Virus record (IMG/VR): IMGVR_UViG_3300024517_000076
Location: 1-30,624 of that record
Reading direction: 5' to 3' (one strand)
DNA length: 30,624 nt
DNA from: a virus
Both the position numbers and the translations under genes were made by a program. This document shows, piece after piece, positions 1-30,060 of this stretch. The notes under the pieces were generated by a model. The model was not told the DNA's origin. It did no database searches and worked only from the letters and a program-made list of their open reading frames with translations. Positions within the stretch are counted from its first letter, which is position 1, and every line of letters begins with the position of its first letter.

Positions 1-89
1 GACGCGATACGACTCTGGATACCAGGCGTCGGAGCCGTATCCGGAGCACGGTACAGGCTTCCACCGAGAGATGAACTGAATCTGCTCAT
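1..89 (-). CDS. Partial low-complexity phage protein, N-terminus only (runs off left edge)
   Basis: The first 29 codons of a gene are visible. It starts at an ATG (89-87) that overlaps the TGA of the upstream gene as ATGA, with GAGG about 9 bases upstream. The protein begins MSRFSSSLGGSLYRAP. This matches the N-termini of the proteins at 686-1381 (MSRLSGQLGGALPS) and 1390-3192 (MSRISSLSGSLTPP), so it is probably a third member of a set sharing an N-terminal tag. It lies at the downstream end of the virion operon. The function is unknown and the rest is outside the window. Confidence 0.6.
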   Translation of the reverse strand, partial: MSRFSSSLGGSLYRAPDTAPTPGIQSRIA

Positions 90-661
90 GACAGGAACCT
101 CGATCCGATAGGCAGAAACGGAACTGTTCGCGTCTCAGGGGTCTGTGTGTACGTCCTGAACCCGTTCCGAGGATTAACCGACTGAGTGATCCGACTGTCC
201 TGATACGTGGAGATCGGAGATGCCGCAATCGCCGCCGCACGCTTCGCATTCATGTCGCCGATCCCAAAGTTCAGGCGGCTCTGAATCGGCTCCAGAAACG
301 TACCTGACATCTGCTGCATCACCTGAGGCACACCAGCATAGTCCGGATTGATGGTCTGTGAGATGTACTCGCCCGTCTCCGGGTCACGCACAGTATCGAA
401 CGACATATTCGTGGTCGGCAACGGAGTCCACCCGGCACCAGCATCGTTCCGATTCGCAATGAAGTCCGTGAAGTCCTCAAACACTCGCCGGTCAGTGTTC
501 GCACCCGGAGTATCAATCAGATTCGGATACGCACCAGACGCCGGAGACGGAAACTGCGCCTGCACAGTCGAGTCCACCGGCGCATCAGGCACCGCCAGAC
601 GCACCTGACGCATCCGTGGGTCTTCCATACGCGACTGTGGTGGTACGAAGTTGAACGCCAT
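86..661 (-). CDS. Hypothetical phage protein, Pro/Thr-rich (191 aa)
   Basis: This 191-residue protein belongs to no family I recognise. It is rich in Pro, Thr, Asn and Gln, with an N-terminal half (residues 1-60) that looks disordered. There is no signal peptide, membrane segment or Cys/His metal motif. The ATG at 661 is preceded by GGAG with 7-base spacing, and the gene sits 24 bases after the preceding stop. The stop overlaps the next start as ATGA. Its place at the end of the structural operon, beside three tagged low-complexity proteins, suggests a minor virion, tail or ejected component. That is inference from position only. Confidence 0.7.
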   Translation of the reverse strand: MAFNFVPPQSRMEDPRMRQVRLAVPDAPVDSTVQAQFPSPASGAYPNLIDTPGANTDRRVFEDFTDFIANRNDAGAGWTPLPTTNMSFDTVRDPETGEYISQTINPDYAGVPQVMQQMSGTFLEPIQSRLNFGIGDMNAKRAAAIAASPISTYQDSRITQSVNPRNGFRTYTQTPETRTVPFLPIGSRFLS

Positions 662-685
662 AACATGACTCCGCCAGGACTCTGA

Positions 686-1381
686 TTACCTCGAAAACGC
701 ACCCGGAATCGAATACCTTCTGTTTGCTGGCAGCATGGAATTCCTGCCCCTGCCCATGCGGACGTTCGACGTGTTTTGTCCGTACTGGCCGTAGTTAGAC
801 ATGATGGCGTCGCGCGACACGCCTGCCTTGACCGCAGCACCAATTTCTGCCCAGTTTGAATCATTGGACGGGATGTACGGATACGGCTGCAGTGGTTGCC
901 AGCCAGTTGGCCTTCCCGAGCCTCCATAATTTATCTGTTGCTGTGTTCCTCCGCTCATCGCTTGCTGATTCATCTGCCTCGCCCGTTCTGGATCACCAAC
1001 CCCCCGAACCGCCTGCACGATCCCATTGTTGACCACGTACGCCGCGCCCGGAGGAGCACCGTTGCCCGCCGTCTGGTACGGAGTGCGATAACCACCCGGA
1101 ACACCCTGCAACCGAGCGGCCTGTTGCGGCTGCTGCGCCTGTTGTTGCGCCAACTGCTGCTGACGCGCCGCCTGTTGCTGCTGGTAGAAATCGATCGCCT
1201 GCTGACCAAGACCCGACAGATGCTGCTGCTGCGACACCGCAGGACGTGCAATCTGAATCGAGTCACCAGAGATACGCGACAGTGGACCTGACTGCGCTTC
1301 CGGCTGCTTACGCACAGCTCCACGCGCCTGATATCCGACGCTGGGAAGTGCGCCACCGAGTTGTCCTGATAGTCTGCTCAT
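686..1381 (-). CDS. Hypothetical Gln-rich phage protein with MSR N-terminal tag (231 aa)
   Basis: This 231-residue protein has a Gln/Ala-rich centre (about residues 60-95: long QQQ and QAQQ runs) followed by Gly/Tyr/Asn-rich sequence. It begins MSRLSGQLGGALPS, the tag also found at the start of the genes at 1-89 and 1390-3192. No catalytic motif or membrane helix is visible. Upstream of the ATG (1381) only a weak GAG-type ribosome site is present, 8 bases after the preceding TGA, so translation is probably coupled to the upstream gene. A minor virion or ejection-type protein is possible; low complexity prevents a family call. Confidence 0.7.
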   Translation of the reverse strand: MSRLSGQLGGALPSVGYQARGAVRKQPEAQSGPLSRISGDSIQIARPAVSQQQHLSGLGQQAIDFYQQQQAARQQQLAQQQAQQPQQAARLQGVPGGYRTPYQTAGNGAPPGAAYVVNNGIVQAVRGVGDPERARQMNQQAMSGGTQQQINYGGSGRPTGWQPLQPYPYIPSNDSNWAEIGAAVKAGVSRDAIMSNYGQYGQNTSNVRMGRGRNSMLPANRRYSIPGAFSR

Positions 1382-1389
1382 GGATTATC

Positions 1390-3192
1390 TCACAGGTAGT
1401 TGTAGCGGTATTCGTTCGGGCTCTCGTAGAACGCATCTTCATACGGGTACGACTGACCGAAAGCTGGATACACAAACACATTGCCAGACTCGTCGTAAAC
1501 AAACTGCCTGCCATCAGAATGCGAGAAATTACCTGCTGTGCCCCAAGGACGCTGCTGGTTATCAGCGTACAGGACAGTATCCCCTCTCTGTCCCGGAACG
1601 GTACCTGGAATAAGCTGCGACACCCTTTCGAAGTCTGAACGCCCAGCAATATCGCCGTACTCAAACAGACGCCCTCCGTTTGGATCAGGCGTCGGTGCTG
1701 CTGGAGTCACTTCGGGCGTCGTTGGCAATACTTGAGAGCCACTTGACGGGAGTGAGCTGTAAATGCCTGGTACGGCAGGGGCGCCCGCCGTCGCAGGAGT
1801 GCCTGGTGCTGTGTACGTGTAGTTGCCGGGCCTGAAATATGGCTGCGAACGCTGTGGCGCGCTGTTCGCAAACAGAGTTACAGCATCATGCAGTCCGCCA
1901 TCGGGACGGTAGACGAACATTGTTGTCCGCCCCTGAATGTTGCGAATGTCGCGGCGATAATTAGTCGGATAATCCCTGTACCCGTTGGTTGTATTCACTC
2001 GCGAATACTGTGTCTGCGCTCCCGGGATCGCTGGCGTCCCAGCAGTAGCCGCCTGCGAAGCCACCTCAGTAAACGGCGTCCCCGCATCTGGAGCCATCTG
2101 CTGCTGCCACCGCAACGGAGTGTAGCCCTCACCCACATTCCCGAAGTTAAACTGTGCAGCTGGCGTGAAGTTTCCACCGCCAATCGGGACATACTCACCA
2201 GCATCACGACTCTCGAACGATTCCCGCTGTCCAGGTTGCAACTGACGCTCTACCCCCGGGACATACTGGAACTCGCTCGGGCCAACATCCCGTGACGCAT
2301 CGACCGTGTATTCCTGACTAACCGGGGTCGTGAACCGGTCACCGTACCCGCCATACGGTAGAGGCGCATCTGGAGTCCAGAACGGTCGTTCCTGCTCGTT
2401 GTTCCAAAGTATATTGACAGGTGAGTTCGTCCACGGGCTGTAAAACGGCTGCGAGGTCGTCGCGTGATCCCCAGTGACCATCCCAGGCAAAGAACCGCTG
2501 AGCCCGTTAAAGCTGTAGGGGTTCGTCCCGGAGCCTCCTATCCCATAGGTCTCTAAACCATCACCTATGATCTGGCGACCCTCAGGAGTCACCCCGTTCT
2601 GCCGTAGGTCACGCGCATAGTCGTGACCCTGATCCGCGCTCCAGCCTGCCGGATTCCCATACTGTCCCAGACGTGCCGAAAATGCCTGCCAGGCAGGAGA
2701 GGCGTCGTCGAACGAACTGCTCGCCACCAGGTCTGTGAGTGTATCACCGGCCGCCTGGACTGGAGATACGTCGCCGGGGATCGGAACAAAACCAGAACCC
2801 GAAGTATTACTGAACCCGGTCCCGGCCCGATATGTGCCCAGCGCATCATTATACGACTGAATCGCATCAATCAGCGGACTCGACGTGCCAGCATTCAGAT
2901 TCATCGAAGACAGCGTCTGCTGATGCGCCTGAGTACCCCTGTCCCCAAAACTCGCCTGCTGATCGCCAACACTCCCGCCAATCCCCTGCTGAGACTCCAC
3001 CCGCCCGAACGTCCCCTGTGAGGTCGTGCGCGGACGGGTCGCCAGAACGCTCCCAGACAGTGATGCACCCGTCCTGCTTGCGTATGAGGGACGTGCACCG
3101 ATCTGGAACACATTCTGCTCTGGAGCGGCTTCCTGCCGTTGACGAGGACGTGGGGGCGTCAGGGAGCCAGACAATGAGGAGATTCGGCTCAC
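1390..3192 (-). CDS. Hypothetical Pro/Gly/Tyr-rich phage protein with MSR tag (600 aa)
   Basis: This 600-residue protein starts with GTG (3192-3190), which overlaps the TGA of the upstream gene as GTGA; GGGGCGG lies just upstream. The N-terminus MSRISSLSGSLTPP carries the tag shared with the next genes. The rest is rich in Gly, Pro, Ser, Thr, Tyr and Asn. It has a duplicated Ala/Pro linker (AATAGTPAIPGA and PATAGAPAVPGI) in the second half and an acidic, Tyr-rich C-terminus ending NEYRYNYL. No known domain is recognised. Position after the nozzle-like gene suggests a virion component, such as a minor tail or internal protein, but nothing in the residues proves it. Confidence 0.7.
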   Translation of the reverse strand: MSRISSLSGSLTPPRPRQRQEAAPEQNVFQIGARPSYASRTGASLSGSVLATRPRTTSQGTFGRVESQQGIGGSVGDQQASFGDRGTQAHQQTLSSMNLNAGTSSPLIDAIQSYNDALGTYRAGTGFSNTSGSGFVPIPGDVSPVQAAGDTLTDLVASSSFDDASPAWQAFSARLGQYGNPAGWSADQGHDYARDLRQNGVTPEGRQIIGDGLETYGIGGSGTNPYSFNGLSGSLPGMVTGDHATTSQPFYSPWTNSPVNILWNNEQERPFWTPDAPLPYGGYGDRFTTPVSQEYTVDASRDVGPSEFQYVPGVERQLQPGQRESFESRDAGEYVPIGGGNFTPAAQFNFGNVGEGYTPLRWQQQMAPDAGTPFTEVASQAATAGTPAIPGAQTQYSRVNTTNGYRDYPTNYRRDIRNIQGRTTMFVYRPDGGLHDAVTLFANSAPQRSQPYFRPGNYTYTAPGTPATAGAPAVPGIYSSLPSSGSQVLPTTPEVTPAAPTPDPNGGRLFEYGDIAGRSDFERVSQLIPGTVPGQRGDTVLYADNQQRPWGTAGNFSHSDGRQFVYDESGNVFVYPAFGQSYPYEDAFYESPNEYRYNYL

Positions 3193-3413
3193 GTTTCCGC
3201 CCCTTCCTCACCAGGAACAGGAGGCGGGTCGCTGTAGCTCGGCCCAAACCGCCGCAACCGGTGTGTCTGGGGGAATTCGAAGTTCGCCACGACAACCTTA
3301 CCCTGCTTGAAGTCAGGCCTGGCGTGCGTACTGGGGCTGAATGCAGACGCCGCTGCTGTCAGCGGTGCGATCGAGGTCGCCTTCTGGGCAAATCTGGTAT
3401 CACCGACCGCCAT
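3189..3413 (-). CDS. Hypothetical small phage protein (74 aa)
   Basis: This 74-residue protein starts at ATG 3413 (MAVGDTRFAQKATS) with AAAGG about 7 bases upstream. It overlaps the end of the zinc-ribbon gene by 14 bases, and its own TGA overlaps the GTG start of the next gene. The middle (residues 33-60) contains KVVVANFEFPQTHRLRRFG, possibly two beta strands, and the end is Pro/Glu-rich. No family is recognised. The tight two-sided overlaps support a real, translationally coupled gene of the structural operon. Confidence 0.6.
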   Translation of the reverse strand: MAVGDTRFAQKATSIAPLTAAASAFSPSTHARPDFKQGKVVVANFEFPQTHRLRRFGPSYSDPPPVPGEEGAET

Positions 3414-3570
3414 TGTCTGCCTTTCGTGGGAACCGCTCTGAATAGTTCGCCTTGAACCGGCATTTTCGGTTTCTACAGCGATGAATCAAGAGCGTCTCGA
3501 AGTTCATGCCAGTGTACTTCATGTCCGCCTCACCACAGCGGGGACATTTTTTCGTGACATTCTCGCTCAT
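3400..3570 (-). CDS. Zinc-ribbon miniprotein (56 aa)
   Basis: This is a small basic protein with four cysteines arranged CPRC (C9, C12) and C32-x4-C37, the layout of a zinc ribbon or zinc knuckle. The start chosen is the ATG at 3570, whose A is shared with the TGA of the upstream 887-residue gene (TGATG). An in-frame ATG at 3645 would add 25 residues lying inside that gene and is less likely. The C-terminus is Lys/Arg-rich. Such ribbons bind nucleic acid or protein partners in other families. Here, sandwiched among virion genes, the role is unknown. Confidence 0.65.
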   Translation of the reverse strand: MSENVTKKCPRCGEADMKYTGMNFETLLIHRCRNRKCRFKANYSERFPRKADNGGR

Positions 3571-6233
3571 CACAGGCTCCGAATTGGTTCCAGTGTCGCT
3601 GTCATGCTCTCGAATTCCACATCCCGATTCGACGCTGTCCGACACCGCACAGCCAGCGCTTTACCGCTCACATACGGATGCGTCACGTTCAAATGCTGCT
3701 CGGTAATCTCCTTCCGGTACCGGCACTTCCCATCCCGAATCACGGTCTCTGCGTCCGGACCACCCTGCACCTCGACCACCATATCGACCCCGTTCCCAAC
3801 CACGACGTCCATGTGGGTCATCAGCAACGACTGGTGCGGCGCATCCTGTGAGACAAACGGCCCCAGAGTGAAGTACCGATCAAACAGAGTCCCGTCGTCG
3901 TCCGTGGCTGTCGCGAGCAGATACCGGATGTACCCGTCCCCGCCACCGAACAGAATCTTCCGGTCCTGAGGTGCGTCCTGATCGAACACCGCAACCGCGT
4001 TGGGATTCTGGTCCAGTTCCCCAAACGTCCACGGAAACCAGCCCTCGGTCCGGAAGTCGTAGAAGTAATGAGTCGTCGCTGTCGTCCCATCATTGTTCCG
4101 GATGGAGATCACAATCCCCTGATCCCTCGCATCCCACGCCAGGTAGATCGTGGAGTTCGCGACGTCCACATCCACGAACCGGTCATCGATCGCTCGGTTA
4201 CTGATCCGCTCCGGAGGCGCATCCAACCCTAGTCGATACAGACCACCGTCGTTCCCGAAGAAGTAGAGGTTGTAGTACGAGTCCACGCACCACGCCCGAC
4301 CCGGCGCCATCCCAACGGAACTCGTAATCAAATCCTGCTCAGCATTCACTGCGGGATCGAGAGTCATCTGCCACAGGGAATGACTACCACCCAGAATCAA
4401 CAAGTCGTCGTTGTAAGGAATGGCCGCCAGCAGCCTGTCTGTGCCCTTCGCGAACAACCCGGCAGAACTCAGACGTCCAGAGATAGCCCCGCCCGTCACC
4501 CCCGTCTGGAGCTTCATATCGAACGGGTCACCCTGCGCGAGGAAGTAGTAGTTCGAGGGGTCATCATCCAGATCGAACAGCAGCAGTTGATTGTTCCAGA
4601 TCTCGATATTGTTGAACCCGGACGGCAGGGTTCCGTACCGCATGTTCGCCTGCCAGTCCTTCACCGCGTCATCGACCGGGTCGTAATACTTCGCATTCGT
4701 CCCGTCCGCGAAGAACGTGAACACCCCGAGATTCGCCGCGTAGATGACCTGCTGGCTCGTACTGAAGGCATTCAAACCATCTGTGGGAGTTGCCTTGCTC
4801 GACGTCGTCACAGTCGCCACATCGCCGTCACTGATCGCCAGAACGTGCTGATACCGGGTCGACCCCTGCTCGTCATGACCGGGGTTCCAGAAGGTGTTGA
4901 TCGAGCCACGATCCAGAGCAGTCGAGATCAGGTCAGTCTTCGTCCACGTCTCCGCGAATGTCGCTGACGCCTTCGTAATCTGCGGCGTGGAATTGTCCCA
5001 CAGATAGTAATTTCCCGCTTTGTCGCACCGCACCATGTCCCATGTTGTCGGACTACCGGGACCGGCATAGTCAACAATTCCCTTTGAGTCTGGATCGAGC
5101 AGGACGAGAGGCTCTCCTGTCCCCAGGACGCTGCTGCCACACAGAGCCAGAAGGGAGCGGTCTGCGTTCCAGCTGATCGACTCAACAGCATTCGTGGTCC
5201 CCAGTTCCAGTTCCCAGATCCCATTCCCGGACGTGTCGATCTTCCGCAGGTAATGGTCGTCATCGCCTCCGCCGGTCTCATTGTCCATCGTCAGGACGTA
5301 GATGAACCCATCCAGCCCGAACTCCAGATCCTTGAACAGCCCGTGATCAGCCGACCCACTGTTTCCGTCCAGCCCAAGGTCGTGAACCGCGTCAATGATC
5401 CCTGTCTTCGAGTTGATGATATAGAGAACAAGCTCATGGTCTGTCGCGCCACCACCGTCTTCCAACGGAGCCGAAACGCAGGCGATCTTCCCTGCGAAGG
5501 CTTTCATCATCGTATGTGTTGTGGTCAGGATCGTATCCCAGCCCGCATTACTCACTCCGCCAAACACCAGCTCGATGTGAGTGGCGTCCGTTTCCGCTCG
5601 AATCCAGACCCCGTCAGTCGTGCTGTCCCGGTTCAACCCATCCGCAACATCCAGTCGCATAATCCCTTCACCGATGTTGTTGATGTCCTCATACCAGACG
5701 TAGACCGTGTCCTCGTCGACCGTCATCCCATAGACGTGATCCACAGCCGGCGCAGAGCCCGCAGTGAAGATCGTTACCGAGTAATCCGCAGAGGTGGGAG
5801 TGGCCTGGTCACGACGTTCCAGCTTGACGGTGGTTGAATTGTGGAGCAGGACGAAGCATTTATCGTCAGCCCCCCAGATGCTCGCCAGGTATGTGTCGGA
5901 AGAGGCAGCATCCGTCGCTGTTCCATCAGCAGGTGCCCGAAATTGAAAGTCAGGTGAGGCTGCACCGCTATCCCCCGCATGAACCATCGTGCCATCACCC
6001 AGTGCCGGCTCAACATACGTCGCGGACACTGTGTGCAGACACTGGATTCGATTGGCGCCGCTGATCTGCTGGTCGCTCCACTTCGTCAACCCGTACCGGT
6101 TAGCTCCCCGCAGCCGGCCGTCCCGATCGAACGGCACCACATTCAGCATGTCGGCAGACGTACCGGTCTCTGTGTCACTGTACGGAGTCACCTCCGCCAA
6201 TCCATTCACAGGAAACCCGGCTTTGACGTTCAT
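3570..6233 (-). CDS. Tail hub/nozzle-like beta-propeller protein (887 aa)
   Basis: This is a large beta-rich protein. The N-terminus (residues 1-50) has the Gly/Pro and ADMLNVVPFDRDGRLRGA pattern seen at the start of many podovirus nozzle or stabilisation proteins (T7 gp12 and P22 gp10 type). Residues about 110-470 contain repeated W/Y-x-D/N-G blades typical of a propeller. Residues about 540-670 carry the hub-like block NNQLLLF, DPFDM, LLILGGSHSLWQM, GMAPGRAWC and LYFFGNDGGLYRL. In the T7/P22 families this class plugs the tail channel below the adaptor ring. Assignment rests on pattern memory and context, not on an alignment. The start overlaps the upstream TGA as ATGA, and the stop couples to the zinc-ribbon gene. 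Confidence 0.6.
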   Translation of the reverse strand: MNVKAGFPVNGLAEVTPYSDTETGTSADMLNVVPFDRDGRLRGANRYGLTKWSDQQISGANRIQCLHTVSATYVEPALGDGTMVHAGDSGAASPDFQFRAPADGTATDAASSDTYLASIWGADDKCFVLLHNSTTVKLERRDQATPTSADYSVTIFTAGSAPAVDHVYGMTVDEDTVYVWYEDINNIGEGIMRLDVADGLNRDSTTDGVWIRAETDATHIELVFGGVSNAGWDTILTTTHTMMKAFAGKIACVSAPLEDGGGATDHELVLYIINSKTGIIDAVHDLGLDGNSGSADHGLFKDLEFGLDGFIYVLTMDNETGGGDDDHYLRKIDTSGNGIWELELGTTNAVESISWNADRSLLALCGSSVLGTGEPLVLLDPDSKGIVDYAGPGSPTTWDMVRCDKAGNYYLWDNSTPQITKASATFAETWTKTDLISTALDRGSINTFWNPGHDEQGSTRYQHVLAISDGDVATVTTSSKATPTDGLNAFSTSQQVIYAANLGVFTFFADGTNAKYYDPVDDAVKDWQANMRYGTLPSGFNNIEIWNNQLLLFDLDDDPSNYYFLAQGDPFDMKLQTGVTGGAISGRLSSAGLFAKGTDRLLAAIPYNDDLLILGGSHSLWQMTLDPAVNAEQDLITSSVGMAPGRAWCVDSYYNLYFFGNDGGLYRLGLDAPPERISNRAIDDRFVDVDVANSTIYLAWDARDQGIVISIRNNDGTTATTHYFYDFRTEGWFPWTFGELDQNPNAVAVFDQDAPQDRKILFGGGDGYIRYLLATATDDDGTLFDRYFTLGPFVSQDAPHQSLLMTHMDVVVGNGVDMVVEVQGGPDAETVIRDGKCRYRKEITEQHLNVTHPYVSGKALAVRCRTASNRDVEFESMTATLEPIRSL

Positions 6234-15159: not shown

Positions 15160-15498
15160 TTATCGAATGTTGGCGTTAAGACTGCCGGTCGCACCTGTGA
15201 CAGCCAGGAGTGTAATCACAAGCGCCTCGTTTTTTGAACCCCCTGACAATCCACGCTTGAACGTGAACTGCCCGACATTGTTCACAGCGTCAAACTGTCG
15301 CTTCCAGATAACCGTCCCGCCAGCACTGACGATGAGGGTTCCTGCACCCTGAGTAGGGTCGTCATAGGACGCATCCATCTCATCAATCACCCACTCGTGA
15401 TCTTCATCAGCGGCAACCGTAATCACGGCAGCCGTGCTGACCGCAGGATTGTGCGTGTACGCTGTGGACTCGGCATCAAGTGATTTTTGAGTTCTCAT
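15160..15498 (-). CDS. Small beta-sandwich virion protein (112 aa)
   Basis: The ATG at 15498 shares its A with the TGA of the five-module gene (TGATG), which I prefer over an upstream in-frame start at 15564 that would lie inside that gene. The protein runs MRTQKSLDAESTAYTHNPAV, then HEWVIDEMDASYDD, GAGTLIVSAGGTVIWKRQF and NEALVITLLAVTGATGSLNA. The W-x-I...SY...G-x-L-x-V...GGTV-x-W plus NEALxITL pattern is characteristic of a recurrent small phage beta-sandwich. It probably decorates a neck or fibre structure; this is inferred. Confidence 0.6.
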   Translation of the reverse strand: MRTQKSLDAESTAYTHNPAVSTAAVITVAADEDHEWVIDEMDASYDDPTQGAGTLIVSAGGTVIWKRQFDAVNNVGQFTFKRGLSGGSKNEALVITLLAVTGATGSLNANIR

Positions 15499-18400
15499 CA
15501 GTCGTAGTACGCCCCCTCGTAAGGAGTTGCATAAACGCTCATGTCGCGACCGCGACCGTCCCATTCACCACGATCGAGGTTGTCGTGATTGATGCCCAGA
15601 GTTTCGGGCGCCTGAGCCTGTTGGTCAAGCTCGATTGATGCACCCAGTCTCTGAGCATACAGATCCCGGTACTGAGTTGGTGCTGCAATCGCCAGACAAG
15701 CCGCAAGAATCGCCTCTGCGTGCTCGCGTCCACCCAGAGGGGTTTGTGTCGTCACCAGGGTCGTCCCAGCCAGTCGAGCCCGGTAGTGAATCTCGTACAC
15801 AGCATTGGCGCGGGGGAAGAACTCAATCCGTCGCGTGGTCCCGCTCGTACCCCCCAGTGGAGAGTGCGAAGCTACCCGTGGAGTCCCTGATGAGGTCGAC
15901 GAGAATGTGTGCCGGTATCGCTGCAGATCCCGCTGCGACATGATCTCAACCTCACCCAGACCCGCACTGGACGATCGGTAGTGCATCGGCCCCTCGATCG
16001 ACTCAACGTCTGAATCCAGCGAGTAGAACTGCCGCACGATGCTGTAGGTCGTACCTGCTGCCGCTGTGGCGCTCAGGTCCGTCAGGGTGAGTTGAGTGCC
16101 GCTGTCACGGGTATCGACCGTGTAGACGGTCCCTGAGAGGTCCAGCTCGCCGTCTGCGGCCCATGTCGGCCACGTCCCACTCGCCAGAGTCACCACACCA
16201 GCGGCAATCGTGACTGTCCCGGTAGAATAGGCTGCTGAGGTCGTGAAGGTCTTCTGTTCCAGCAGGAACGACCAGCGATGGTGCCGGTGCTGCGAGTTCC
16301 CGGTCAGGGACGGCTTGAGGAACTCCTGATAGCCCCGATTGAGCCATGACTTCACCCGCTGCAGGTCATCATTCGACCATGCCCCCGGATTCGGACCCAT
16401 CTTCATCGCAGCGCCGATCTCCTGCTGCAGCCAGTCAACCGTTCCGAACGTAGGCTCAGTCGCCAGCCAGGTCGACGCCTCAGTCGCTTCAGCCCGCTTG
16501 TCAACCGCGCGAGAAGCCGCAAGCCGTTGCAGGAACACCTGATACGCCTGTCCGTATTTATCTGAACCCTCAGCCAGAATCGCCCGACAGCTCGACAGGA
16601 GAGTGTCCGCGTGCGCTCTTCCCCCATAAGGGTAGTTTGCGGTGGGAGTCAGCGACTTGGGCACAACTGTGTACCGGTACGTCACGGTCCCCGCTGCATC
16701 TGCGTCAGGAGTCGGATAGACCACCATCTCATGCTGCTGCTCTGCCGCCCCTGTCGTCGCCTTAGCCCGGATACAGTACACGAACGGGTCGTCAGTCGTG
16801 TCTTTGGTCGACTGCAGGGAGCGAATCTCAGCGTCGGTAATCTTCGTGAGTGACCGCCGAGTATCCGCCGTCGCGAACGAGACAATCCCCTCTAAATCAC
16901 CAAAGTCGTTCGGCAACGTGTAGGTGTGAGTCGACGCCACCAGAGTCAGGGTTGAGGTCGGGCACAGAAAGCTCCACTTGTTCGGCGGCTTCTCTGCAGC
17001 ACCGTCCGCAATCGGCATTGGAGGCGGCGAATAGAACTGCTGACACCCCCTCTGAATGACATCATCGACTCGGCGCTCGGCTGGACGGGACCATGAGTCG
17101 TAGTCTGCACCAAACCCCAGTTCATCCCCTAGAACCCGCTGCAACCACTGGTACGTTCCATAGGTCGGCTCGGTCGCCGGCCACGACTGGTCTTCCGGTT
17201 CCTCAACCCGCTCATCGACCGACCGTGATGCAGCCAGTCGCTGGAGAAACACATCGTACGCCCGAGAGAACGCTTCCTGGCCTTCAGCCATGATGGCCCG
17301 ACACGAAGCCATGATCGTCTCTGCGTGGGCACGCCCTCCGTAGGGGTACTCAGCAGCAGTCGTCAGAACCGCCGGCACAATGGTGTACCGGTAAGTGACC
17401 GTTCCCGCCGACTGCGCATCCGGGGTCGGGTAGACAATGATTTCCTTCGTCTGCTCAGCCGTCGAGTCGGTCGTCTTCGCCCGAACGCAGTAGACCGAAG
17501 GATCACCCGACTTACTGTTGGTCGACTGCTTGCTTCGAATCTCGCCTTCAGTCACTTTTGCCAGTGATCGCCGAGTATCTCCCACCGCGAACGACACTGG
17601 CCCACTCATATCGCTGAAGTCTGCCGGAAGCGTGTACGTCGTCGTCCCATCCACCAGGGTGACAGTGGCTGTCGGGCACAGGAACGACCACTTGATCGGC
17701 GGAGAGAACCCTTCCTTTGTTGGCATCGGAGGCGGGAAATAGAACGCCTGCAATCCACGCTGGATTGCGTAGTCAATATGCCGTTCTTCCTCGTGAGACC
17801 AGGTTGCCGAGTCCCACCCGTACCCCGCTCTGTTTCCCAGACCTCGCTGGAGCCATTGATAGGTTCCGTACGTTGGAGTCGTGTCTGGTGACGCAGCAGA
17901 ATCCGCCTTGTCGACTTCCCGGTCCACCTCGACTGATGCGGCCAGTCGTTGCATGAAGACCCCGAACGACTGCTGGTACTGCTGGTCGTCTTCGTGGAGC
18001 TTCGCCAGGCAACTCGCCAGAATCGTGTCAGCGTGAGTAATCCCACCGTACGGATAGTTCGCAACCGTCGTCAGAAGCCGAGGCTCGACGCTGTACCGAT
18101 ACGTCACCTCAAACGCTGCGTTCGGGACCGGGTAGACCACCATCTCCCTCTGTTGAGTCGCGGTCGACTCAGTCTTCCTTGCCCTCACCGCATAGTTCCG
18201 AGGCGCCGCTGTCGTCGTGCCATCCACAGACAACTGAGACCGGATACTGTCCTCAGTCACCTTAGTCAGCGACCGCTTCCCACTGGATTCGACGTACGAC
18301 ACCTCACCGCTCATCGCCCGGAAGTCGGACGGCAATGTGTACTCGAATTCCGAAGCAATGAAGTTCAGTTTCGCCGTCGGGCGCAGGAAGGACCATTTGT

Positions 18401-19310
18401 GACCGGCAGCCTGCTGTCCCTCACCACCCGGTAGCGGCGGAGGCGTGTAGAACTGCTGAAGACCGCGTTGAATCACATCGTCAACGTGCCGCTCCTCTGC
18501 GTGGTCCCAGGTGTTGAAGTCGGCTCCGTACCCTGCCGCTTTTCCAATCCCTCGCTGAAGCCATTGGTACGTTCCGTAGGTCGGATCGGTGACCGGGAAG
18601 GACATTGCCTGTTCCCGATCCCGAATCCCTTTGTCGATTGCGATGGAAGCCGCCAGCCGCTCCTGATAGGCGTTCTCCCACTTCGTCTCCGCTGGCCCAT
18701 CGACCCCGATCTTGCTGTACCGCTCTGCCTCCGCCATACACGCGGCAACGATAGTCTCTGAGTGGTGCTGTCCTCCGAACAGGAATGTGTTACTGGCCGC
18801 AGCATCGACCTGGACGTTGTACGAGTAGGTCAGAACGTAAGAGGCGTCCGGGATCGGGTAGAACAGGATTTCGGTTCGCTGACCTGCTGACGTCGTCGGA
18901 ACCGTGTCCTTCACCCGGGTCGCGGCGTAATCCGGGCGTCCGTTCGCCGTACCTTCACTTGCTTTCTTCTGCAACAACTGCTGCATCGAGATCAGGACAA
19001 TCTTCGTCCCGGCTCCCTCGGATGAGATCACCAGGTCGTTGTTCAGATACCCCATGCACGTATCGGGCAGATTGTACTCCTGAGTCCCCGACGCCATCGT
19101 GATGGTCGCTGTGGGATGCAGGAACGTCCAATCGTAGGCGCCCTCCTCTGTCACCGGGTTCAGGAATCTCCTCAACCCGGCATTAAGGAACAGGTCGACC
19201 CGTTCCAGTTCCTCGCTGTCCGCGTCATTGATGCCGAACCCATACCCGAGCATCATCGATACTCGTGCGCGAACGTCATCCCGCGTCAGTGACAGAGTGG
19301 ACTCAGCCAT
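15498..19310 (-). CDS. Five-module neck adaptor-like fusion protein (1270 aa)
   Basis: The protein is five consecutive copies of one domain: residues 1-250, 251-486, 487-722, 723-960 and 961-1270. Each module has an N-terminal helix pair (ERxVDDVIQRGLQQFYxPPP), a strand block (KWSFLxPTATxTL...YTLPxDF), a central VVYPxPDA...TYRYxxxP block and a C-terminal helix (GGRAHADTxLASCxA...FLQRLAAS). Linkers end in PTYGTYQW. This layout resembles the head-to-tail adaptor/gatekeeper class (T7 gp11 and P22 gp4 type), normally one domain of 160-200 residues, though I could not align it. Module 5 is most divergent and carries an extra beta insertion of about 70 residues (around VTIAAGVVTLASGTWPTW) and a Tyr-rich tail. 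The start lies one base after the preceding TGA. Confidence 0.65.
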   Translation of the reverse strand: MAESTLSLTRDDVRARVSMMLGYGFGINDADSEELERVDLFLNAGLRRFLNPVTEEGAYDWTFLHPTATITMASGTQEYNLPDTCMGYLNNDLVISSEGAGTKIVLISMQQLLQKKASEGTANGRPDYAATRVKDTVPTTSAGQRTEILFYPIPDASYVLTYSYNVQVDAAASNTFLFGGQHHSETIVAACMAEAERYSKIGVDGPAETKWENAYQERLAASIAIDKGIRDREQAMSFPVTDPTYGTYQWLQRGIGKAAGYGADFNTWDHAEERHVDDVIQRGLQQFYTPPPLPGGEGQQAAGHKWSFLRPTAKLNFIASEFEYTLPSDFRAMSGEVSYVESSGKRSLTKVTEDSIRSQLSVDGTTTAAPRNYAVRARKTESTATQQREMVVYPVPNAAFEVTYRYSVEPRLLTTVANYPYGGITHADTILASCLAKLHEDDQQYQQSFGVFMQRLAASVEVDREVDKADSAASPDTTPTYGTYQWLQRGLGNRAGYGWDSATWSHEEERHIDYAIQRGLQAFYFPPPMPTKEGFSPPIKWSFLCPTATVTLVDGTTTYTLPADFSDMSGPVSFAVGDTRRSLAKVTEGEIRSKQSTNSKSGDPSVYCVRAKTTDSTAEQTKEIIVYPTPDAQSAGTVTYRYTIVPAVLTTAAEYPYGGRAHAETIMASCRAIMAEGQEAFSRAYDVFLQRLAASRSVDERVEEPEDQSWPATEPTYGTYQWLQRVLGDELGFGADYDSWSRPAERRVDDVIQRGCQQFYSPPPMPIADGAAEKPPNKWSFLCPTSTLTLVASTHTYTLPNDFGDLEGIVSFATADTRRSLTKITDAEIRSLQSTKDTTDDPFVYCIRAKATTGAAEQQHEMVVYPTPDADAAGTVTYRYTVVPKSLTPTANYPYGGRAHADTLLSSCRAILAEGSDKYGQAYQVFLQRLAASRAVDKRAEATEASTWLATEPTFGTVDWLQQEIGAAMKMGPNPGAWSNDDLQRVKSWLNRGYQEFLKPSLTGNSQHRHHRWSFLLEQKTFTTSAAYSTGTVTIAAGVVTLASGTWPTWAADGELDLSGTVYTVDTRDSGTQLTLTDLSATAAAGTTYSIVRQFYSLDSDVESIEGPMHYRSSSAGLGEVEIMSQRDLQRYRHTFSSTSSGTPRVASHSPLGGTSGTTRRIEFFPRANAVYEIHYRARLAGTTLVTTQTPLGGREHAEAILAACLAIAAPTQYRDLYAQRLGASIELDQQAQAPETLGINHDNLDRGEWDGRGRDMSVYATPYEGAYYD
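15501..19310 (-). repeat. Five tandem in-frame adaptor-like modules
   Basis: Module borders on the DNA are 18561-19310, 17853-18560, 17145-17852, 16431-17144 and 15501-16430. Modules 2, 3 and 4 are nearly the same length (236, 236 and 238 residues) and are most alike. Modules 1-3 end with the linker TYGTYQW and module 4 with TFGTVDW. The copies are diverged in DNA, so this is an old or selected duplication and not a recent one. Confidence 0.8.
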
Positions 19311-20960: not shown

Positions 20961-22028
20961 TCAGACCAGGTAGGCGCGGAAATTCGCTCGACGGTTCTGG
21001 AAGTACAGGTTGCACTCCCCGTCGATGTGCATGTCGCGGGTGTTGTGTGCCAGCGGGTTCGGCTTCGCCTTGTGACGACGCATCTCCCGGCCACGCTTGA
21101 AGAAGAACTTCGCCGTGTTCCAGTTGATCCCGTACAGGGGACTCGTGGAGTCGTAGGCGTCGTTCCCTGAGTGCGTCAGGACTGGAACCCAATCCACGGG
21201 AACGCCCTGGAACATCGGACGTCCGCTCGGACTCTTTTCCAGCCCGGCGAGGTCCGTCAGGTTGTCATTGCGGCTGTTGAGGAACCGACCAAGCTGTTCC
21301 ACAACATTGTAGACCGTGTAGAAGCCCCACTGCGGTTGTCCGCCACCCAGTTCCGGGAACTTATGAGGCGGGGTGAAGTTGCAGAACGAGGTCGCTTTTC
21401 GCCACTTGGCAAACAGGTCGTCGTCCGTGTACTTGCTCCACGTGAAGGTGTAGTTCTTCCACCGCGCATAGGTGGCACCGAGAAGGTTTCCGGCGCCCGA
21501 AGAGAAGCCCGACGGGTCGCCGCCGTTGAAGCCTTCGGTCGCGTTCGACTGCAACCAGAGCGGAACTCCAGAGATGGGCATCGGGTCCTGGCTGTCACTC
21601 GAAGGCGCAGTCCAGAAGTGATTCTCCATCTGGTCGAACATCTCATTGAAACAGGAGTGCTCGCGAGCCAGCACCAGTTCAATGATCTGGGTCGTGTCGT
21701 CGCCCTGAAACTCATCCTCGTTGATGTCATACGACCAGTTGGTCGTCCACATCGCCCAATCCTGCTGGGCTGTCTTCATGATGTTGGTCACACCGGTCTG
21801 GTCTCGACTGAAGAGACCCGTGAACCGGAAGTTCCCCTGGTTGTCGACCTGGACGCGCCATTTCTGACGCAGTCCGCCGGCCACCGGGGTCTTCTTCTGC
21901 CGCATGAACCGCTCAGCAACGATGTGATGCTGATTGTCCAGCGAGATGTCGACCCACTTTTTCTTCTGATTCCGATCGATGGTGGTTTCAACCAGGTCAT
22001 CGATCTCCTGTGGAAGCAAAGTCGCCAT
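20961..22028 (-). CDS. Major capsid protein, HK97-fold type (355 aa)
   Basis: Length, position after a scaffold-like gene and residue pattern all fit a phage major capsid protein. The N-terminal arm is helical (LLPQEIDDLVETTIDRNQKK). The middle holds aromatic and Gly-rich segments (QQDWAMWTTNWSYDINEDEF, EMFDQMENHFWTAP). The C-terminal part, MFQGVPVDWVPVL...LYGINWNTAKFFFKRGREM, reads like the P-domain and late strand regions of capsid proteins in this class. I chose the ATG at 22028 because AAGGGA lies 9 bases upstream. An ATG at 22037 (three residues longer) abuts that site with almost no spacing. Both starts lie in a strong RNA hairpin. Subunits would assemble on the scaffold and portal into the head. 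Confidence 0.8.
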   Translation of the reverse strand: MATLLPQEIDDLVETTIDRNQKKKWVDISLDNQHHIVAERFMRQKKTPVAGGLRQKWRVQVDNQGNFRFTGLFSRDQTGVTNIMKTAQQDWAMWTTNWSYDINEDEFQGDDTTQIIELVLAREHSCFNEMFDQMENHFWTAPSSDSQDPMPISGVPLWLQSNATEGFNGGDPSGFSSGAGNLLGATYARWKNYTFTWSKYTDDDLFAKWRKATSFCNFTPPHKFPELGGGQPQWGFYTVYNVVEQLGRFLNSRNDNLTDLAGLEKSPSGRPMFQGVPVDWVPVLTHSGNDAYDSTSPLYGINWNTAKFFFKRGREMRRHKAKPNPLAHNTRDMHIDGECNLYFQNRRANFRAYLV

Positions 22029-22084
22029 GTCTGGCATTCCCTTGTTCTGGGGCCAGACATGACGTCAAAGAATCAGGTCTGGCC
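22023..22084 (-). promoter_or_regulatory. Candidate RNA switch over the capsid gene start
   Basis: On the minus-strand transcript, CGUCAUGUCUGGC (22064-22052) pairs with GCCAGACAUGGCG (22035-22023). That is 13 consecutive pairs including one G-U. The 16-base loop holds the AAGGGA ribosome site, and both possible capsid AUGs lie at or in the 3' arm. CCC and GGG within the loop could close it further. An upstream element GGCCAGAC (22084-22077), just before the scaffold stop codon, can instead pair with GUCUGGCC (22058-22051), which would free the start. The two folds exclude each other. Confidence 0.6.
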
Positions 22085-28419: not shown

Positions 28420-29127
28420 ATGCCTGAATCAGCCCTTGTGTATGCGCGCTATTCCCCACGTCCCAAACAGAAGCGTTTGAAGATGGAAGACGGGGAGACG
28501 ATCGAACATCAGTTCTCTGTCTGCAAAAAATACTGCGAGATGAGGAATCTGACTGTCTATGGATTCCTGTCCGATGAAGGCGAGAGTGCTCGGAAGACCC
28601 CGTTGTTCGACAGACCCAACGGCAGCAAGCTCCAGCACCCGCCATCCGAAGTAAAGCACATCATCGCTGCCAAGCTCGACCGGTTCTTCAGGGATACCGT
28701 CAATGGGATCCAGATGCTGAAGTTCTGGTCCGACAAAGGCATCACCGTCCACTTCGCGGATCAGGGCGGCTGCTCATTCAATGTCGAGACTGCCACTGGA
28801 CGGCTCCTGATGCGAACCCTGCTGTCGTTCGGGGAATTCGAGGCAGATAACTCGTCCGAGCGCACGTCGGCCGTCATGAAGCATCGTCAGGCGAATGGCG
28901 AGGTCATGTCCAAGCGATTGCCGTTTGGGAGAATGCTCGACCCTAACGACCCACAGAGGACCGTCTGCTGTGACCGTGAGGTAAACATCATCCGCGAGGT
29001 CAGGAAGCTCAGAGATGAAGGACTGACCCTGCGAAAAATCGTCGACATTATGGGACACATCCCCCTGCGGGACGCTGGCTGGTCCCCGGAACGAGTCAAC
29101 ATTCTCATCAAGTCAGAATGCGTGTAG
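28420..29127 (+). CDS. Serine recombinase, resolvase-type catalytic domain (235 aa)
   Basis: The N-terminal domain (about residues 5-160) is a serine recombinase. It has R10 and catalytic S12 in YARYS, FDRPNG (63-68), KLDRFFRD (85-92, with R88 and R91) and FGEFEADNSSERTS (137-150) at the start of the long E-helix. From about residue 165 (SKRLPFGRMLDPNDPQR) the sequence follows the opening of the 'recombinase' domain of large serine recombinases, then a helix-turn-helix-like stretch (LRDEGLTLRKIVDIM). It ends at 235 residues, without the zinc ribbon and coiled coil of large integrases. It could be a compact integrase, a resolvase or a DNA invertase. GAGG lies 8 bases before the ATG. Confidence 0.8.
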   Translation: MPESALVYARYSPRPKQKRLKMEDGETIEHQFSVCKKYCEMRNLTVYGFLSDEGESARKTPLFDRPNGSKLQHPPSEVKHIIAAKLDRFFRDTVNGIQMLKFWSDKGITVHFADQGGCSFNVETATGRLLMRTLLSFGEFEADNSSERTSAVMKHRQANGEVMSKRLPFGRMLDPNDPQRTVCCDREVNIIREVRKLRDEGLTLRKIVDIMGHIPLRDAGWSPERVNILIKSECV

Positions 29128-29542: not shown

Positions 29543-29761
29543 ATGGCAGGGAGAGAAAATTCACCGATTGACCCGGAAGTCGTGCTGAGGCTTCTGAAGT
29601 ATCCAGTCACTGCGGATCAAGTCGCACAACGCCTGGGACGGTCCAACAGTTCAATCGGTCATATTATCCGGACACACCTGTCTGACCAGGTTGAGTCGGA
29701 GAAGCGGGTCGGAAAAGGCAACCGGTTGCCCGTGATGCACTACTGGCGAAAGGAGTCGTGA
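29543..29761 (+). CDS. Small winged-helix/HTH-like DNA-binding protein (72 aa)
   Basis: Residues about 10-45 read as a helix-turn-helix: PEVVLRLLKYPVTADQVAQR followed by LGRSNSSIGHIIRTHL, with the typical 'xTxxQVAxxLGxSxSSIxxII' spacing. A short basic wing-like strand follows (RVGKGNRLPVMHYWRK). At 72 residues it has no ligand-binding domain and likely acts as a simple DNA-binding regulator. AAGGG lies about 7 bases upstream of the ATG, and the stop overlaps the next ATG as TGATG. The target is unknown; nearby promoters, including that of the recombinase, are obvious candidates. Confidence 0.6.
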   Translation: MAGRENSPIDPEVVLRLLKYPVTADQVAQRLGRSNSSIGHIIRTHLSDQVESEKRVGKGNRLPVMHYWRKES

Positions 29762-30060
29762 TGAATCGACGTGAGATGCTGAAGACGATGGCTGCTGCTG
29801 GTCTGGCGGCAGTGACTGGTGTGCCGAGTGCTGGTCCAGCGACTACGACTGTTCTGGGCGACCTTAGCCGAGAAGAAGCGGGCGACTTTGTGTTTCTCAA
29901 GGCGAACACGCACTGCGCACTGAACGCTACGGGGAATGTGGCGACACTGGGAGGTGAGCCGATCGTCCTTGTGCCCGGCGATCTGGTAATGATGTTCTTC
30001 GACGGTAACCAGTGGATGGCGTCTGGGTTGACCGTTGGGGAGGCGGAGAAAGTGACCTGA
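29761..30060 (+). CDS. Small protein with Tat-like leader and beta domain (99 aa)
   Basis: The N-terminus MNRREMLKTMAAAGLAAVTG has a twin arginine (R3, R4) in the NRREMLK context, followed by an Ala-rich hydrophobic stretch and VPSAGPA. Together these look like a Tat export signal. The remaining 65 residues resemble a small phage beta domain (TLGGEPIVLVPGDLVMMFFD, GNQWMASG). The start is the ATG at 29761, with AGGAG 5 bases upstream; a GTG one codon earlier also exists. If exported, the product would act in the cell envelope. If the leader is not used, it may be a small virion protein. It is coupled to the HTH gene. Confidence 0.55.
   Translation: MNRREMLKTMAAAGLAAVTGVPSAGPATTTVLGDLSREEAGDFVFLKANTHCALNATGNVATLGGEPIVLVPGDLVMMFFDGNQWMASGLTVGEAEKVT

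Follow-up and report, generated by a model that had tools for sequence, protein, structure and literature searches.

Of the last four late genes in the virus record IMGVR_UViG_3300024517_000076, which comes from an uncultured short-tailed phage, three encode proteins that open with a shared short sequence, here called the tag. The whole record (30,624 bases, with a gene cut at its left end) was analyzed and is referred to as the window. The proteins starting at positions 89, 1381, and 3192 (P0001, P0002, and P0003) begin with MSRFSSSLGGSL, MSRLSGQLGGAL, and MSRISSLSGSL, respectively, and have in common, inside their first 12 residues, the core [LIVFM]-x-G-[SA]-L. The translations thus bear out the initial annotation, which had noticed the three N-termini and had set apart the 191-residue protein of the same run (P0004); this begins with MAFNFVPPQSRM and carries no tag. 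We hold it to be highly probable that the tag is genuine and under selection at the protein level. More tentatively, with a confidence just short of even, we read it as a sorting signal of internal virion proteins that would target its bearers to the head or to the ejectosome.

The tagged genes and P0004, all on the minus strand, are as follows (tags by translation and codon reading):

2..89, minus: P0001, first 29 residues only; tag MSRFSSSLGGSL, core LGGSL at residues 8-12, second element SRIA at residue 26
54..89, minus: the 12 codons of the P0001 tag
86..661, minus: P0004, 191 aa, without tag; its orthologue is the untagged 194-aa protein of the related phage G004 (E 6e-22)
686..1381, minus: P0002, 231 aa, Gln-rich; tag MSRLSGQLGGAL, core LGGAL at residues 8-12, second element SRIS at residue 35
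1346..1381, minus: the 12 codons of the P0002 tag
1390..3192, minus: P0003, 600 aa, Gly/Ser/Pro-rich; tag MSRISSLSGSL, core LSGSL at residues 7-11, another LSGSL at residue 231
3160..3192, minus: the 11 codons of the P0003 tag

The Tag against Background

Local BLOSUM62 scores over residues 2-13 were 34 for P0001 with P0002, 27 for P0001 with P0003, and 22 for P0002 with P0003; among 9696 within-locus pairs of predicted N-termini, these were reached by fractions of 0.0001, 0.0004, and 0.0034, respectively. In 121 other loci, not all of them separate from one another, no trio of N-termini reached this similarity, and P0004 paired with the tagged N-termini scored at background level. The core motif occurs four times in the 9936 residues of 32 window genes (the gene set being our choice): three times at the tagged N-termini and once inside P0003, so that the scatter over unrelated N-termini of the same genome that would have spoken against a tag was not seen. 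Random draws of residues place the motif in the first 14 positions with a probability of 0.0025-0.0029 per window protein (for P0001, pooled composition was used).

The count was extended to 1085 distinct predicted open reading frames (ORFs) of at least 60 aa from the window and related loci, called longest first, with eight loci and duplicates by the first 40 residues excluded; P0001 is too short to be part of this set. Only seven ORFs carry the motif in their first 14 residues, the same seven as in an earlier count of 1059. Five of these are post-nozzle genes of this phage group; of the two others, one lies in G004 (L008, 1495) and starts with TTG, and the second lies in L021. By our tally of ten post-nozzle genes, this is five of 10 versus two of 1075 (Fisher P 4e-10), in which orthologues are not independent; by family, it is two of six versus two of 1075 (Fisher P 1.5e-4). 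It should be noted that the core was defined after the three sequences had been viewed, so that the fair test lies in the relatives.

Conservation in Related Phages

An alignment of the terminase found at least 80 loci in IMG/VR, and the closest relatives were found with alignments of two further proteins of the window:

3189..3413, minus: P0005, 74 aa, conserved small protein preceding P0003; 51-57% identity in three relatives
3570..6233, minus: nozzle-like protein, 887 aa; weakly matched by a beta-propeller profile and 50-55% identical to its counterparts in three relatives

Four phages share the nozzle and P0005: the window, G002 (L003/L004), G004 (L008/L107/L120), and L123. The 63-kb record of G004 repeats 127 bases at its ends and was therefore taken as closed. 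The gene behind the P0005 homologue overlaps it by ATGA in all three relatives, and its product begins with MRNLIRGSLYPG in G004 (707 aa), MRGFNGSLAQPG in G002, and MRGIAGSLSRG in L123, the latter two genes being cut by contig ends. The core is thus present as IRGSL, FNGSL, and IAGSL in every relative that keeps the neighboring genes, and GSL is found in five of the six tagged N-termini, P0002 having GAL. Orthology to P0003 is positional for all three; past residue 15, P0003 and the G004 protein are similar (z 7.3), and the G002 and L123 proteins share 36% identity (E 6e-35). The four-row alignment has 14 invariant columns, in which the sole run longer than one is G9-S10-L11. That the core was kept at the start of these orthologues while most of the body diverged supports a functional tag at the protein level, as the initial annotation had supposed; it had also suggested looking for the motif beside nozzle genes of other phages.

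The codons point the same way. The core serine is encoded by TCC, AGC, TCA, and TCC in the four proteins at the P0003 position and by AGC in P0001, P0002 having alanine; this switching between AGY and TCN argues for selection on the peptide, and judging from these sequences selection seems to act at the protein level, not on the RNA. The initial annotation had described the tags as written in different codons, which is true of P0003 and the relatives but less so of P0001 and P0002, which have five of 12 codons in common (ATG AGC AGA and CTC GGT).

Further out, none of the seven motif-bearing ORFs lies on the distant nozzle-bearing contigs L108-L119. An orthology of P0002 to the 232-aa gene of G004, which is similar in length and composition, was considered and is unsupported (z 0.9, P 0.19). 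Among 50,697 phage records, no match was found for P0003, nor for the portal, the nozzle, the capsid, or the giant protein of G004; the terminase gave distant matches only, in 105 records, all below 60% identity. Single-protein pattern scans of IMG/VR with the nozzle or P0003 returned no locus; as such scans detect exact peptide patterns only, further relatives may exist. Terminase and nozzle alignments found no relative in the genome collection, and thus no prophage relative or host is named here. As a separate observation, a 91-aa gene of G002 between the nozzle and the P0005 homologue (L004:8869-9144, plus strand) contains VMRGGLLPGKKPNRLRR, which is much like the IRGSLYPG of the G004 tag but is not N-terminal.

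A Second Element and the Body of the Tagged Proteins

Likeness among the tagged proteins extends somewhat past the tag. Each of the six has an element S(G)R[LIF][SA] within its first 45 residues, and five of them have a copy at residues 23-40 (residue 26 in P0001, 35 in P0002, and 23, 39, and 40 in the relatives), P0003 having its only copy inside the tag. The element is absent from P0004 and the four untagged G004 proteins, and occurs three times in the 9076 residues of the 29 other window genes. The P0003 tag also has a partial internal echo around residues 43-54 (P 0.01), and that of P0002 is not significant (P 0.27); both the pattern and the echoes were recognized post hoc. These features suggest a multi-part arm rather than a strict 12-residue tag. 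Two earlier claims are accordingly narrowed: conservation confined to about 12 residues applies to the core but not to the second element, and the complete divergence described for the bodies does not quite hold, given that P0002 and P0003 keep a weak similarity past residue 15 (z 2.2, P 0.028) and that P0001, 45% identical to P0002, is known for 29 residues only.

Gly, Ser, and Ala (in P0002 also Gln) abound in the tagged proteins, which have no strong hydrophobic stretch, and the bodies of P0002 and P0003 are of low complexity. A structure model of P0003, built from four sequences, has a mean pLDDT of 38.5 and no confident fold; over residues 1-100 of this poor model, pLDDT is 28-38 per ten residues, a very low confidence such as disordered chains show. 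The tag sits on an N-terminal arm that is probably disordered.

Genomic Position of the Tagged Genes

The late genes lie on the minus strand in the order large terminase, portal, scaffold-like protein, capsid, SU10-type adaptor, fibers, and nozzle-like protein, followed by genes of 74, 600, 231, and 191 aa and the gene cut after 29 residues. Names of structural parts were taken from profile matches, position, and relatives, and for the capsid also from a structure model; those of the scaffold and fibers come from position and composition alone. The SU10-type adaptor domain (PF24175, E 1e-47) was recognized in a Pfam scan.

For SU10, the account of its virion together with its gene table places the nozzle gp17 before the needle gp18, gp19, and gp20-24 (PMC9509320), and describes gp20-24 as ejection proteins, present in virions and absent from the genome-release intermediate (PMC9509320). 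The tagged genes occupy a like slot behind adaptor, fibers, and nozzle. A post-nozzle block ending in a giant gene was found through G004, where the order is nozzle, 70, 707, 194, 232, 839, and more than 2684 aa, with the giant protein last as in SU10; the window breaks off before any gene of that size. This giant matches the cut last protein of the L108 block (E 4e-19), and giants, 1478 to 2776 aa long, are also present in the blocks of four distant nozzle-bearing contigs (L113, L114, L116, and L118). As a side observation, the one in L118 (2776 aa; L118:7190-15520, plus strand) contains a nuclease-like domain, PBECR3 (PF18812, E 5e-18). By sequence, at E 0.05, the proteins of the cluster have no match among gp18-24 except the 839-aa protein of G004 with gp24 (E 0.013). 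SU10 gp21 and gp22, which both begin M[SG]LFG, were considered as a precedent for a shared tag and set aside, since their similarity (32%, E 8e-13) runs through most of the two proteins.

Slot, composition, and the low-confidence arm of P0003 fit ejection proteins, and from the slot it is rather likely that the tagged proteins are internal virion proteins.

A Candidate Sorting Signal

In the reading that we tentatively favor, ejection-slot proteins behind the nozzle of a short-tailed phage of the SU10/T7 type would carry a short N-terminal signal with the core [LIVFM]-x-G-[SA]-L. During head assembly, the tag may bind one common partner, such as the capsid interior, the scaffold, or the portal; through this shared partner, proteins with different bodies would be packed into the same particle, to exit later with the DNA. 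Among the roles raised by the initial annotation, packaging into the head fits the slot best; nozzle binding keeps a lesser probability, and processing found no support.

Precedents for such a signal exist in two other phages. Internal proteins of T4 are described as having a short capsid targeting sequence (CTS) at the N-terminus and highly diverse bodies (PMC3012670). The tag would resemble it in being short, very N-terminal, and common to presumed internal proteins with differing bodies, the internal location being read from the slot and P0001 being known for its first residues only. No sequence likeness was seen, T4 sequences not having been retrieved, and we treat the CTS as an analogy only; targeting has been shown in T4 and is presumed here. 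In the account of P1 DarB, the first 30 residues bring a reporter into heads and nine do not, and truncations suggest a role for residues 6-10 (PMC9024508), a position close to that of the core in our proteins (residues 4-12). The same source reports finding no N-terminal consensus among Dar proteins (PMC9024508), whereas several genes here share one N-terminal sequence.

Several points weigh against a sorting signal. The likeness of the tags sits in a five-residue core defined after the fact, and over all 12 residues the resemblance between the tags of window and relatives is loose (background fractions 0.006-0.33). The orthologues are not independent evidence. Past the tag, P0003 and the G002 protein have no significant similarity (z 0.7), so that this orthology rests on position, and their tags are left unpaired in a two-row global alignment. 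In G004, just one of the five genes behind the P0005 homologue is tagged: its proteins of 194, 232, 839, and more than 2684 aa lack an N-terminal core, as does P0004. The tag is thus not a general mark of the post-nozzle slot, and most slot proteins must arrive without it. The motif is also missing from the N-termini of SU10 gp16-24 and from P1 DarB, which begins with MNKLSMGVFRCSS and is therefore an analogy and not a homologue. The virion location of the tagged proteins, finally, is read from the genomic slot.

The main alternative, which we consider unlikely but somewhat ahead of those that follow, is a docking peptide of the tail: the bearers would be tail-tip, plug, or channel proteins, and the tag would bind the nozzle, the portal, or P0005 from outside. 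In all four phages, the gene of P0003 or of its orthologue does come immediately after those of the nozzle and P0005, and in the SU10 account the needle gp18 is the product of the first gene behind the nozzle (PMC9509320). This explanation has to accommodate three different tagged proteins, two of which (P0002 and P0003) are of low complexity and without a strong hydrophobic stretch, P0003 moreover without a confident fold. A role at the tail keeps some probability all the same, for P0003 at the tail tip above all.

Less probable again is that the tags go back to common descent of the 5' ends, through ancient duplication of, or recombination involving, an N-terminal piece comparable to a first exon, which would have no targeting role of its own beyond that of the parent. 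The shared codons of P0001 and P0002 and their identity over 29 residues, the residual similarity of P0002 and P0003, and the shared second element all agree with such an origin. Whatever the origin, selection is needed to explain a core kept in three relatives with greatly changed bodies.

A more specific idea concerns encapsulins, whose targeting peptides, as summarized in PMC7925596, are short, C-terminal, and marked by a widely conserved GSL with an adjacent preceding hydrophobic residue; they bring cargo into a shell with the HK97 fold (PMC7925596). The capsid of our phage is a candidate docking partner:

20961..22037, minus: major capsid protein, 358 aa, with an HK97 fold in the structure prediction

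The model (pLDDT 77.6) has its best match in a cyanophage capsid (Z 19.6), with encapsulin chains at Z 13.1-15.7. The points of possible likeness are a GSL, a preceding hydrophobic residue, and a predicted HK97-fold shell as a candidate partner. All six tags are N-terminal, however, in contrast to the C-terminal encapsulin peptides; the hydrophobic residue stands two before the G, P0002 has GAL, and the match amounts to three residues. Since HK97-fold capsids generally resemble encapsulins and three residues carry little information, we give slight credence to the tag being for a phage what the cargo-loading peptide is for encapsulins, that is, an N-terminal hydrophobic-x-G-S-L docking inside the shell.

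The two remaining explanations appear very improbable. In the first, the N-terminus would be a processing signal, cleaved during assembly at a Gly-Ser/Gly-Ala or double-glycine site like the head propeptides of T4 and giant phages. In a double-glycine leader peptide, Gly-Gly closes the leader; GG occurs in only two of the six tagged N-termini. The short shared N-termini of T4 internal proteins are, as stated in PMC5694885, cut off by the prohead protease, and the sites given there for T4 and giant phages have an acidic residue (PMC5694885), unlike the tags. Pfam scans covering 21 of the 32 window genes recognized no prohead protease or other protease family, which is weak evidence, as an unknown protease is possible. 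In the second, Gly/Ser-rich sequence and gene overlaps would by chance yield look-alike starts without function: ATGA or GTGA overlaps do occur at P0001 (ATGA, with P0004), at P0003 (start codon GTG, overlapping the preceding stop as GTGA), and in the three relatives; the first letter of codon 2 must then be A, which explains part of the shared MS. The motif was also picked after the data had been seen and has one internal copy in P0003. Overlap leaves G-[SA]-L unexplained, however, the codons vary, the motif is rare both in composition shuffles and among the 1085 ORFs, and relatives have it at the corresponding position.

Other Features of the Record

The adaptor is a tandem fusion of varying extent. 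It has 1270 aa and five stretches matching PF24175 in the window (15498-19310, minus strand), 1311 aa and four stretches in L122:2904-6839, 792 aa and two in L003:15570-17948, and 754 aa and two in L123:21-2285, where its 5' end is cut; in L127:12344-15818, two adjoining ORFs of 482 aa (two stretches) and 252 aa (one) take its place. At the adaptor position, SU10 has gp11, a single protein of about 250 aa. Variation in copy number is not what one would expect of a subunit belonging to a 12-fold ring.

Beside the packaging genes, on the opposite strand, lies a serine recombinase (Resolvase, PF00239, E 3e-20; 28420-29127, plus strand), a hint of integration or of a neighboring mobile gene. A small protein at 29758-30060 (plus strand) starts with MMNRREMLKTMAAAGLAAVTG, which resembles a twin-arginine signal; starts of this kind are known from Planctomycetota, which may hint at the host of this phage. 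The terminase and capsid of the IMG/VR record L002 (IMGVR_UViG_3300024520_000485) are identical (100%) to those of the window, and the phage has thus been assembled at least twice; the coordinates of L002 stop short of the left end of the window.

Implications

We found no description of such a tag in the literature searched, and on this basis only do we call it undescribed. How short-tailed phages select the proteins that are loaded into the head is, in our judgement, largely open. If the tag is a sorting signal, a compact sequence on several presumed cargo proteins of one phage, conserved among its relatives, would make this question directly testable, and it might be used as a short label to load proteins into phage particles. 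Should the far less probable likeness to encapsulin peptides be true, one address code would fill both virus heads and bacterial nanocompartments, through descent of the docking site or through convergence.

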